A stretch of DNA of 64,000 nt. It comes from Pneumocystis sp. 'macacae' (lineage: Eukaryota; Ascomycota; Pneumocystomycetes; Pneumocystales; Pneumocystaceae). Each line of letters begins with the position of its first letter. The first letter of the stretch is position 1. The notes under the pieces are model-generated. The model worked only from the letters and a program-made list of their open reading frames with translations, was not told the DNA's origin and made no database searches. Where the stretch lies: assembly GCA_018127085.1 (NCBI GenBank), contig CM030720.1, positions 186,001 to 250,000 on the forward strand, read 5' to 3'. The position numbers and the translations under genes are program-made. Shown one piece after another: positions 17,840 through 29,728 of this stretch.

Positions 17840-20800
17840 ATGAGTGCAATAACACCAAATATGTTTTTATATTCTTTAACTTTGCTTCCTCCATCTGGTA
17901 TTAGTGCATCAGTGGTTGGGCAGTTTTCGGGTCAGAAGCAACAAGAAATAATTGTTGCTCGTGGATCACGTTTAGAGCTTCTTAAACCAGACCCTAATTT
18001 GGGAAAAATAAAATCATTGCTGTCGCATGATGTATATGGAATAATACGTACACTGGTAGGATTTCGTCTAGCTGGAACTAATAAGGGTATTTTCTTTTTA
18101 AAGAAAGTAATGTAATCTTATTTACAATAGATCATTTGATAGTTGGATCTGATTCTGGTCGTATTACAATTTTAGAATATAACCCTGATTCCAATATTTT
18201 TTCTAAAGTTCATCAAGAAACATATGGGAAATCAGGCGTAAGAAGAGTTGTTCCTGGTCAATATCTTGCTGTTGATCCTAAAGGACGAGCTACTATGATA
18301 GCATCAATTGAGAAAAATAAGTTGGTATATGTATTAAATAGAGATTCTGCTACAAATCTTACCATTAGCTCTCCTTTGGAGGCGCATAAAAGCTGTTCTT
18401 TAGTCTTTCATTTAGTTGGAATGGATGTAGGGTATGAGAACCCTGTATTTGCTGCTTTAGAAGTGGATTATACAGAAGCAGAATCGGATCCTTCTGGAAA
18501 AGCATATCGTGAAATACAGAAAGTATGATTTTTTCTTTTTTTTTTTTCTTCATTATTTTTAGGTTCTTACTTATTATGAGCTTGATCTTGGATTAAATCA
18601 TGTTGTGAGGAAATGGAGTGATCCAGTTGATCGGAAAGCTAATCTTCTTGTTGCAGTTCCAGGTGGAGCTGATGGCCCATCTGGGGCTCTTGTTTGTACT
18701 GAGGGTTCTATATTTTATAAGCATAAAGGAAAGAAAACTCATAGAATACCTATTCCAACACGTATAGGTCTCTTAGCGGATTCTCAAAGAAAACAGATTA
18801 TAATATCATCTGTTCTTCATAAGATGAGAGTTTGTGCTTTTAATTATTGATTTGATTCAAACGTTTTTAGGGTGCATTTTTTTTTCTTTTACAGAATGAA
18901 GACGGTGATTTATTTAAAGTAACTATTGATTCAAATGATGGAGAAATAGAATCTCTCAAGATAAAGTATTTTGATACGGTGCCTGTTTCCACAGGACTGT
19001 CTATTTTGAAATCTGGATTTTTGTTTGTAGCAAGTGAATATGGGAATCAGTATGTTTGATGATAGTTTTGTTGTTTATTTACTAATTTTAGTCATTTATA
19101 TCAATTTGAAAAACTTGGGGATGATAATAATGATGCAGAATTTTCTAGTCTTGATTTTCCTATTTTGGATTTAAATGAGGGATATGAACCTTCATATTTT
19201 CGTCCTAAGCCTTTGGAAAATTTACTTCTTGTAGATGAATTGAATAGTATGAATCCTTTGATGGATTCAAAGGTTGTTAATATTTTTATATATGGAAAAA
19301 TGCTAATATTAAGATATTAAATCTTACGAATGAAGATGCTCCGCAAATATATGCTCTTTGTGGTAGGGGTGCAAGATCTAGTTTTAGAACTTTACGTTAT
19401 GGTCTGGAAGTCAGTGAAATAGTTGCAAGTGGGCTTCCTGGCTCACCTATTGCTGTCTGGACAACAAAGCTTACTTCATCTGATCAATATGATGCATATA
19501 TTGTACTTTCATTCGTTAATGGAACTTTGGTTTTGTCAATAGGTGAGACTGTTGAGGAAGTTTCTGATACTGGATTTCTTTCTTCTAGTCCAACATTAGC
19601 AGTACAACAACTTGGTGATGATGCATTAATTCAAGTTCATCCTAAGGGAATAAGACACATTCAAGTTGATAAGCGAGTTAATGAATGGAAGACTCCTCAG
19701 CATCGAAGTATTGTACAAGTGACCACAAATCAAAGACAAGTTGTAGTTGCATTGTCAAATGGTGAAATTGTTTATTTTGAGTTAGATGATGAAGGAAATT
19801 TGAATGAATATCAAGATAGAAAACAAATGACAGGCTCTGTTACTAGTTTGAGTATTGGTCATGTATTAGAAGGACGACAGCGTCATCCATTTTTGGTATT
19901 ATTTTGATTTTATGTTTTTATTATGTTAATAATTTAGGCCGTTGGATGTGATGATAATACTGTGCGGATTATTTCTTTAGAACCTGAAAATACTCTTGAA
20001 AGTTTGAGTGTACAGGCATTAACAGCGCCTCCAAATTCATTGTGTATTATGTCTATGAAAGAAGGTGATATTGAAACTTTTTATTTACATATTGGTTTAT
20101 TTAATGGGGTTTACTTAAGAAGTGTACTTGAACTTTCTACTGGTCAACTTAAAGATACTAGGACACGATTTCTTGGTTCTCGTCCAGTGAAATTATTTAG
20201 TGTTACGGTTCAAAACCAGCTTAGTGTTATTGCTTTATCGTCAAGGCCTTGGTTGTCATATATTATTAACGCTTCTCTTCATCTTGTGCCATTAATATAT
20301 GAAAGCCTTGAGTATTGTTGGGGTTTTTCAAGTGAACAATGTCCTGAAGGTATTGTAGGGATTCAAGGTCAAGATTTAAGGTAAGTAAATATTTACAAAA
20401 TTAAAAATTTTATTATGATGAGTTAAAAGTTGTAATTATTTTTTATGATTAAAATTTTTTCCAATTGTTCCTACTGAAGTGTTTAAAATATATTTAGTTC
20501 AATATATTTCTAGTATTCGTCTAATAATGTGAATAGGATATTTATGATTGAAAGGCTTGATAATATTCTTAAACAAGATTCTATATCTTTAATGTATACT
20601 CCTCGTCGATTTATTAAGCATCCAGATGAACATATATTTTATGTTATTGAGTCTGATCATAATGTTCTTCCGTTAAATGAGCGACAAAAGCAAATAGAAG
20701 GAATGCAAAATGGAGACAGTATTCTTTCTTTAGGAGATTTTGGACCACCTAGAGGATCATCTGGAAATTGGGCATCATGTATTACAATTTTGGATCCTCT

Positions 20801-22058
20801 TGCTAAAAAGATTCTTAATAGACTTGATTTAGACGATAATGAGGCTGCATTTAGGTATTTTTTTGTTTTTCATTATATATTTATTTTAATATTGTTAGTA
20901 TTGCAATGGTGACTTTTAAAAATCAAAACGATGAAATATTTTTAGCTATAGGAAGTGGAAAAAATGTTATTTTAGCACCTAAATCATTTTCTGCTGCGTA
21001 TATTAGCATTTATCGATTTATTGATGAAGGGAAATCTATTGAATTAGTTCATAAAGTAGCTTAGTATATTTATTTTTTATTCTTGCTAAGTTATATATAG
21101 ACTGAAGTAGATGATATTCCATTGGCTTTGTTGGGATTTCAAGGTAGACTTTTAGCTGGGTTAGGTAAAATGTTACGAATTTATGAAATGGGTATGAAAA
21201 AATGTCTTCGTAAATGTGAAGTTCGGGTATTTGGCGTTTTAGTTAATATGCATTCTAACTAAATATATAGGCTGTTCCAAATTGCATTGTTCAACTTCAT
21301 ACTCAAGGAAGTAGAATTATAATTGCTGATATTCAAGAGTCTATTCATTTTGCTGTGTATAAATATCTTGAAAATCGATTGATAGTTTTTGCTGATGACG
21401 TTATTCCACGGTGGACTACAACTTCTATAATGTTAGATTATGAAACAGTAGCTGCTGGTGATAGATTTGGGAATTTTTGGATTAATAGATGTCCTTTTGA
21501 AGTTTCTGAAAGTGCTGATGAAGACCCTTCTGGTGCTCAGCTTATTCATGAAAAATCATACCTTTTTGGCGCTGCAAATAGATTGAAAATGTTAGCACAT
21601 TTTTATATAGGAGATATATTTACATCAATGCATAAAGTTCAATTAATTACAGGAGGACGTGATATTATTGTTTATACTGGAATGATGGGAAGTATAGGTA
21701 TTTTTTTACCTTTTGTAGGAAGAGAAGATGTAGATTTTTTTCAGCAATTGGAAGCACTTATGAGAACAGAAGATCCTTCATTAATAGGTCGAGATCATTT
21801 AATGTATAGAGGATATTATGTTCCCGTGAAATCTGTTATTGATGGTGATTTATGTGAAGTAAAGTTTTTGGTTTCTTTATTTTTTTTAATTTTTATAGAG
21901 ATTTTTAATGCTTCCATATAATAAGAAGCAAGTAATAGCTAATGAATTAGGTATGTTAATGTTTTGTAGAATATTAAATAGTTTAATACTTTGTAGATCG
22001 TGAAATATCTGAAATAGCAAAGAAAATTGAAGATATGCGAGTAAGAGTTGCATTTTAA
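17840..22058 (+). CDS. RSE1: U2 snRNP SF3b subunit RSE1/SF3B3
   Basis: Three-propeller scaffold protein of the SF3b complex (SAP130 family; Prp12 in fission yeast), which helps U2 snRNP recognise the branch site. It starts at ATG 17840 and ends ...[19 protein letters not shown]. Landmarks in order: [23 protein letters not shown] segment near 18700, [103 protein letters not shown]. This order matches human SF3B3. Introns include 18087..18130, 18523..18562, 19273..19313 and a long one at 20381..20536 that houses a snoRNA. Length is about 1,150-1,200 residues, near the family norm. Confidence 0.94.
20407..20489 (+). ncRNA. Intronic C/D-box snoRNA, snR41/U62-like (18S A541 guide)
   Basis: Inside RSE1 intron 20381..20536, on the sense strand. 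C box ATGATGA is at 20415-20421 and D box CTGA at 20474-20477, flanked by ATTTTA/TAAAAT that can close a short terminal stem. Just before the D box, 20460-20472 reads TCCAATTGTTCCT. That is a perfect 13-nt complement of AGGAACAATTGGA, a segment conserved in fungal 18S rRNA just before the universally conserved 530 loop. The fifth base before the D box pairs with the A corresponding to yeast A541. That site is methylated under snR41 in yeast and is the U62 target in humans. A possible C' box (ATGATT) lies at 20445. The rRNA sequence is recalled, not searched. Confidence 0.82.
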
Positions 22059-27225: not shown

Positions 27226-29728
27226 ATGACTGAGGAACGTGATGGAGTTTTAAAACCAAAGTTAAAAGGTCTTATGATTGCTATTAATACATTTACTGAC
27301 TCTAGGAAGATGTAAACCATTATGCAAGTCAAACATTATGTAGAAATATTTTGATTCATGGATATTGTAAATTTGCTGATAAAGGATGTATTTTTAATCA
27401 TGAAAATGTAGATATATTTAAATGTTTTAGATTAATAAAAAGCTAATATTATTGTTAGTATCGAACTTTTGAAAAGAATAGTACTTCTTTTTCTTCCGAA
27501 ATGTTGGGTTTTATTATTTTTGTTTTTTATTAATATGTTTTTAGATTTAAAAAAAATATACATGATATGTCTTTATTTACTTCTAATGATTCTCTTTCAA
27601 AGCTATATCCTCGATCAATAGCTCAGGTCCCTGATTTTGTTCCACGTTCTAAATTGTGTATGTTATTTTTTGAAAAAATCTGCTAATTTTAATATTTTTA
27701 GCTTTATCTAATCAATCATCTAATTCTCAACCATCTGTTTCAATTAAGTAGGAATATATAAAGTTTATGTGATTATCTAAATATAATTAAAAGGAACCAC
27801 AATGCTTTACCTGAATTGGCTTCTTATGATTTAATAGATACAAATCTTAAACAGTCTTTTGGTATTGATCATGAATTTTCTAAGTTTGATATTAACTTTG
27901 TTTTAATATTTTTTGTTTTTGTTTTAATCTTATGTGTTATAGGTGCCTGATAGTTACTCTTCTTTTCCTTTTTATGATACGAATTCTGCATCTTCAAGTA
28001 ATTTTTATGATCATGAGATTTACTATAACCAAACACCTGTTTATCAGCCGGTATTTATTTTTATTACTTTTTTTTTTTTAAATACTGTTTTTAGTTACAA
28101 TATCATTTATACGCATCTCATGCACCGTATAGGGAAAATTTAGAACCATATCAAAGAACAGTTTATGATTTTTTCATGTCTAATACACTTCGTGAAGATC
28201 TCCAAAGAAAATCGGAAGCTATTCATCAAGTTTTAGTTGGTATTGATGTTTTTTTTGATTTTTTTTATTCAATGATTTGAATAGATTCTAATTTACCTAA
28301 TCAAATACTTGGATATCATTCACTTGTTCCCCTTGATACACTTCATAATAGAAATACAAGGATTTTTGGCTATCCTTCTTGGGTATATAAAGTCTTCTCT
28401 AGTAATGATGGATATTCGTATGTTTTTCGGAGATTAGAAGGTTTAATTTTGTTTCTATTATTTTTTTTTTGATTTTTATAGGATTTCGTTTATTGAATGA
28501 ATCTTCTATTAATTTAGTAAAAATATGGAAAAGGGTTAGAAATGCAAATATAATATCTATTCATGAAGCATTTACTACAAATGCATTTGGTGATAGTTGT
28601 AAGTTATATATTTTATTTAGAGTTGTTGTTAAATATTAAGCCATTGTTTTTGTATATGATTATCATCCACTTTCTATTACATTATATGAAAAGTATTTTT
28701 GTCAGTATTTACAAAAGGGTTCTAAATGTAGTGATCGATGTATAATTTCTGAATATGTTCTATGGGGCTATCTTATTCAAATTATTTCTGCTATAAAATG
28801 TATTCATGCTGAAGGACTTGCCGTTCGAGTTTTAGATCTTACTAAAATTTTATTAACGGAAAAGAATCGGTATATATATATATATGTATGCATATAATTT
28901 GTTTTTTTAATTTCAATTAAGGCTAAGATTAAATTGTTGTGGAATAATGGATGTTATTCTTCCTGGTTTTCGAAAAAATGATCAACAGTTGCAGAATCAT
29001 GATTTTACGTTGTTAGGGCAATTAATACTTGTTTTAGCGTGTAGTTCTTTAACTGCTATTGAGAATATTAAAGAGTCATTTGACTATATTATCAAACATT
29101 ATTCTAAAAATTTTCAAGATATTGTTTTTTATCTTCTTAAAAATACTGAGTTAAAATCGATTGATAAATTGGTTGTTCTTGTTTCTAGTCATATAATTGA
29201 TTCATTTAATAGTTCATTATGGTAATATTTTTATATATTGTTCTTTATATTTATTGTTTTGATAGTTACAATGATACCCTTGAATCGGAATTGTGTCGTG
29301 AATTAGAAAATGGAAGATTAGTTCGTTTGCTATGTAAATTCGGGTTTATTAATGAAAGACCAGAATTTGACCATGATGAATTATGGTCGGAAACTGGTGA
29401 TAGATATCTTATTAAATTATTGAGAGATTACGTTTTTCATCAAGTTGATGAAAATGGTAACCCTGTAATTGATATGGCGCATGTTATTAGTTGTTTAAAC
29501 AAAGTAGGGGTTCAAATTTATTGTATATTTCTAATATTTAGTAGCTTGATGCGGGTGTTGATGAAAAGATTATGCTTGTATCAAGAGATGAACAAAATTG
29601 TTTAATAGTAAGTTATAAAGAGGTAATGTATAGAGTTTTGTGTATAATGTTAACATATATAGTTAAAAAATTGTATCCAATCAGCATTTCTTGATTTAAC
29701 AAAGAATAGCCAGAAGATGTCTTTTTAG
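27226..29728 (+). CDS. PAN3: PAN2-PAN3 deadenylase subunit PAN3
   Basis: Regulatory subunit of the PAN2-PAN3 poly(A) nuclease, which trims mRNA tails. It starts [12 protein letters not shown] at 27226. Near residue 40 is a CCCH finger ([21 protein letters not shown], spacing C-x8-C-x6-C-x3-H). A linker with [12 protein letters not shown] resembles the PAM2-type region that binds poly(A)-binding protein. The pseudokinase core includes [27 protein letters not shown] and [19 protein letters not shown]. The C-terminal knob domain reads [19 protein letters not shown] and [19 protein letters not shown]. The last exon, after intron 29624..29663, encodes [14 protein letters not shown] and stops at 29728. 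About nine short introns. Convergent with LSM7, 124 bp apart. Confidence 0.92.

Follow-up and report, generated by a model that had tools for sequence, protein, structure and literature searches.

A probable box C/D snoRNA with an A541-type guide in an intron of the RSE1 gene of Pneumocystis sp. 'macacae'

Introduction

Box C/D snoRNAs carry box C (consensus RUGAUGA) close to their 5' end, box D (CUGA) close to their 3' end and a short terminal stem that joins the two; they are stable small RNAs to which the C/D core proteins bind. Their guide is a stretch of about 10-20 nt just before box D or D', and the target base is the one paired to the fifth nucleotide upstream of that box (D-minus-5).

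Residue A541 of yeast 18S rRNA is guided by snR41, and the equivalent human residue, Am590, by U62, according to a table in PMC3511168. In yeast, snR41 is part of the snR41-snR70-snR51 cluster (PMC3596301); its Rfam model (RF01218) spans two guides, one for A541 and one for a second target, G1126. Neurospora crassa has separate RNAs, CD13 (18S-Am538) and CD9 (Gm1122), both with their guide at box D; S. pombe snR41-I, the counterpart of CD13, and snR41-II are given in the same table (PMC2780460). U62 (SNORD62, RF00153) and snR41 are placed in the same Rfam clan, CL00068. The chicken U62 homolog is found in an intron of LOC417177 (PMC2653536).

The window analysed here, a stretch of 64,000 nucleotides from contig CM030720.1 (positions 186,001 to 250,000) of Pneumocystis sp. 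'macacae' (P. macacae), includes the RSE1 gene. With a probability of about 0.93, one of its introns encodes a box C/D snoRNA that corresponds in Pneumocystis to CD13 and to the half of snR41 that guides A541, and that would direct methylation of the A541 equivalent. The guide core CCAAUUGUUCC-N-ACUGA and the target A541 are common to this RNA and S. cerevisiae snR41. In P. macacae, however, the two guides spanned by the yeast model are separate and the A541 guide resides in the intron of a protein gene. CD13 is likened to it by layout, having the same A541-type guide before box D and being intron-encoded (PMC2780460). Human and chicken U62 are likened to it by target, not by sequence, and differ in host gene.

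The intron with the probable snoRNA

RSE1 (SF3B3) occupies positions 17840-22058 of the forward strand, where 13 exons splice into an open frame of 1197 aa closed by one terminal stop. Splicing of this segment defines 12 introns, eleven of 40-46 nt and one of 156 nt (20381-20536, GTAAGT...AG), which is 3.4 times as long as its longest sibling. The initial annotation of this DNA, which set a 156-nt intron against local introns of about 45 nt, was exact on this point. The single long intron among minimal siblings is explained by the snoRNA that it houses. CTAAT at 20521-20525, which begins 44 nt past the end of box D, is the likely branch site as judged from motif and position.

All elements of the snoRNA lie on the forward strand. 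Box C, ATGATGA at 20415-20421, starts 34 nt downstream of the intron's first base. Box D, CTGA at 20474-20477, is the single CTGA of the intron, and its end lies 59 nt upstream of the last intron base; letters and coordinates of both boxes had been given correctly from the start. Between them are found a C'-like box, ATGATTA at 20445-20451, which the Rfam alignment pairs with the first such box of snR41, and the guide TCCAATTGTTCCT at 20460-20472. The intron element thus has boxes C and D, a guide length and a D-minus-5 spacing that agree with the box C/D layout. The terminal stem beside the two boxes is short and weak, its 5' arm TATT (20411-20414) forming two Watson-Crick and two G-U pairs with the 3' arm AGTG (20478-20481). 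An alternative outer helix of 6 bp joins 20407-20412 (ATTTTA) to 20484-20489 (TAAAAT). Free-energy folding is uninformative on snoRNA status: the minimum free energy of 20403-20492 has a z of -0.46 relative to shuffles, 58 out of 200 of which were equal or better.

Pairing with 18S rRNA and the predicted target

When the whole intron was compared with the 1800-nt 18S rRNA of locus L013, the longest duplex had 16 bp at 18S positions 538-553, with 13 Watson-Crick and three G-U pairs. The Watson-Crick part is formed by TCCAATTGTTCCT with 538-550, as initially proposed for the 13 nt before box D, and the three G-U pairs extend the duplex to 20457. T20469, the fifth base before box D, pairs with A541, and U578 lies 37 nt beyond A541. 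This count, made on L013, reproduces the position that the initial annotation had given for yeast, and its statement that A541 is a known 2'-O-methyl site (snR41; human U62) agrees with the table in PMC3511168.

The yardstick L013 is a complete, yeast-type 18S sequence and not that of Pneumocystis; its record also holds 5S, 5.8S and the start of the large-subunit rRNA. It is one of four rDNA loci (L010-L013) that come from records titled as bacterial, and Rfam SSU_rRNA_eukarya was detected in all four. Each contains AGGAACAATTGGA because the pattern used for retrieval began with it, and the loci therefore inform on the place of this segment, not on its frequency. Its fourth base is numbered 541 on L013 and L012, 535 on L010 and 540 on L011. 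The titles of the records name Blastococcus (L010), a Flavobacteriales MAG (L011), Brenneria (L012) and Planomonospora (L013), and the eukaryotic rDNA in them is probably contamination.

In the P. macacae assembly there is a single exact occurrence of AGGAACAATTGGA, on the minus strand of the RSE1 intron, which is therefore the guide itself and not an 18S copy. Searches of the assembly with a 530-loop pattern (up to 3 mismatches), the whole 18S and the 5.8S family, run without a positive control, found no P. macacae 18S or 5.8S, so that the rDNA is either absent from the assembly or invisible to the search. This empty result contrasts with the rRNA genes of P. jirovecii, P. carinii and P. murina, which are reported as single-copy in genomes with about five introns per gene (PMC4764891). 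For P. macacae, A541 as target and expression of the snoRNA are predictions from sequence.

The search for a D' guide against 18S rRNA gave nothing convincing. After the main duplex came a run of 15 nt (10 Watson-Crick) at 20390, outside the C/D core, one of 12 nt (7 Watson-Crick) at 20505, and others of at most 11 nt along the 1800-nt 18S. Against the L013 rDNA downstream of 18S (spacers, 5.8S and large-subunit start) the longest run was 14 nt (8 Watson-Crick) at 20436; a run of 11 nt with 10 Watson-Crick pairs was also present at 20425.

Chance and decay as alternatives

It is highly improbable that an AT-rich intron acquired C-like and D-like boxes plus a 13-mer complementary to 18S rRNA by chance. 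Some figures do lend weight to such an accident. Among 5000 shuffled introns, 26 carry a complement of at least 13 nt anywhere on 18S, in a weaker control without D anchor, and five other RTGATGA..CTGA pairs, 30-103 nt apart, are present in the window. In a further weaker control, a guide-plus-D pattern tolerating up to 3 mismatches has one match in the window, which is exact, versus 0.40 expected; one or more matches occur in 32 of 100 shuffles. The complement in the RSE1 intron, however, stops one nt before the only CTGA available and falls on a known methylation site, and this intron is also the top-scored snR41 match of the genome.

A further score is anchored at box D. It counts a perfect guide to 18S ending 0-2 nt before CTGA, sites less than 20 bases from the ends being excluded. 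Across the 307 CTGA sites on both strands of the window, the guide reaches 13 nt at one (the RSE1 intron), 11 nt at one, 10 nt at one and at most 9 nt at the other 304, which leaves the intron site alone with a guide of at least 12. In 100 dinucleotide-shuffled windows just 2 of 30155 CTGA sites have at least 13, and the early judgement that chance is unlikely is upheld. The second-best site of the window, at 29684 on the minus strand (11 nt, 18S position 1251), was rejected as a guide, being at chance level (52 of the 30155 shuffled sites have 11).

That the intron carries a decayed or silent copy, with the working A541 guide elsewhere in the genome, is very unlikely. A weak terminal stem and an Rfam score under gathering would suit decay, but the boxes and the guide are intact and the exact 13-nt guide, with no mismatch allowed, is absent from the rest of the assembly. 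The second snR41 match of the genome, the only other one inspected, is a guide for another residue, G1126, and the remaining 12 score at most 22.9 bits.

Relation to snR41 and the partner snoRNA for G1126

No Rfam family reaches its gathering threshold anywhere in the window, and neither tRNAs nor further Rfam families were found in it. When 4227 families were run against the window at E<=5, snR41 was the sole match, in the RSE1 intron, with E 0.37; on 181 preselected bases round the element the same model gave E 0.0011. Its alignment places 20439-20490 on the whole snR41 model. A search of the 8.27-Mb genome at E<=10, which scored 55 of 3037 first-look candidates, listed 14 matches: the RSE1 intron came first (30.2 bits, E 0.011), followed by C3:514672-514761 (29.0 bits) and by 12 others of at most 22.9 bits. 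The Rfam comparison that had been suggested as a check independently points to snR41 at this intron, the best match listed for the genome, with a score of 30.2 bits below the gathering score of 50. Among control genomes the model found a match at E<=10 in 9 of 14, none over the cut-off. The low score is partly explained by the model spanning two guides, since the RSE1 intron RNA has one and the other is on a separate snoRNA.

This separate snoRNA, of the Afu_455/snR41-II type, is encoded on a contig other than that of RSE1 (minus strand of L003, 1504-1584, corresponding to C3 514675-514755). Besides Aspergillus Afu_455 (34.2 bits, gathering 48) it matches snR41, above all at the 3' end. Sixteen pairs, 15 of them Watson-Crick, join its guide to 18S 1122-1137, and D-minus-5 falls on G1126. 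With the A541 guide in the RSE1 intron and the G1126 guide on another contig, the two guides of yeast snR41 come from separate genes in P. macacae, which becomes one more fungus with this arrangement. With its box-D layout and split guides, as in CD13, the intron element is an ordinary representative of the A541 branch. The snR41 identity initially assigned therefore holds for the A541 half, whose guide precedes box D as in CD13, and not for the G1126 guide. A snR41/U62-type C/D snoRNA with A541 as predicted target is the best reading of the locus.

A yeast-like double-guide snR41, starting from the box at 20445 and using CTGA 20474 as D' with a further D box downstream, would agree with the span of the Rfam alignment but is rejected, as the intron lacks a second CTGA, the G1126 region is not among its 12 longest 18S duplexes, and the G1126 guide sits on another contig.

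About 90 nt upstream of the G1126 snoRNA, L003 1677-1762 (minus strand) is a possible second C/D snoRNA with ATGATGA, CTGA and a terminal stem ATCCAA/TTGGAT. It has no D-anchored guide of at least 9 nt against 18S and matches SNORD11B weakly (24.7 bits, gathering 50).

RSE1 as a snoRNA host

The host gene was identified from its product. A PDB sequence search with the 1197 aa places full-length Rse1/SF3B3 proteins on top, from 1636 to 1386 bits. The entry 5hy7 scores 1636 bits and human SF3B3 ~1425, yeast Rse1 reaches 334, and DDB1 and CPSF1 have ~163 and ~41 bits, respectively. Among the best 120 of 3005 protein-database matches the top three are from Pneumocystis, the best-scoring being P0001 of P. 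jirovecii with 95% identity. In P0001-P0004 the protein is unbroken across the junction of intron 20381-20536, reading L(R/K)IF, a likeness at the protein level that says nothing on the presence of the intron.

Following the known pathway, the intron would be spliced out of the RSE1 pre-mRNA, then debranched and trimmed while snoRNP proteins shield the C/D core. The 13-16 nt before box D would pair with 18S rRNA, and fibrillarin (Nop1) would methylate the 2'-O of the A541 equivalent.

The initial annotation also expected a spliceosome gene to be a new host for this snoRNA, but the host is less novel than was assumed. Introns of human SF3B3 host SNORD111A and SNORD111B (PMC6124571), and introns 3 and 6 of chicken SF3B3 host HBII-82/SNORD111B (PMC2653536). 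As SF3B3 is the vertebrate ortholog of RSE1, such a host is not new in kind. SNORD111A/B (HBII-82) are likewise C/D snoRNAs but have a 28S target (human G3923) and belong to another family. A change of host is itself ordinary, given that 45 of 55 Neurospora C/D snoRNAs are intronic (PMC2780460) and that fungal snoRNA introns are lost at one site and present at another (PMC3596301).

The snoRNA family is known, and RSE1 looks new as its address. No paper linking snR41 with RSE1 was found in the literature searched, although Canzler et al. 2018 (The fungal snoRNAome) may already list a Pneumocystis snR41. By title, literature searches returned none on Pneumocystis snoRNA genes and nothing relevant on a snoRNA in an S. 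pombe prp12 intron; passages of one paper on snoRNAs from a Taphrinomycotina search gave no mention of Pneumocystis, snR41 or RSE1.

The element is genuine but unremarkable, an unannotated representative of a known snoRNA family. It gives a Pneumocystis genome a snoRNA that had not been annotated and whose target can be predicted, and it alters no general picture. A more speculative and very unlikely idea is that RSE1/SF3B3 is a recurrent home of snoRNAs that guide rRNA modification, for the A541 guide in Pneumocystis and for SNORD111A/B in vertebrates, coupling through splicing the output of a core U2 snRNP subunit to that of rRNA methylation guides. If true, such coupling could adjust the marking of ribosomes to the level of splicing in Pneumocystis, whose genomes are intron-dense and whose rRNA genes are reported as single-copy.

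The databank also holds an RSE1 protein of Pneumocystis sp. 'macacae' itself (P0002, PMAC_000070, 1153 aa), which is identical to the window frame at all its 1153 residues. Five stretches of the frame are absent from P0002, one made up of its initial 7 residues and four lying internally, which together amount to 44 residues, and the gene model of P0002 appears mispredicted for this reason.
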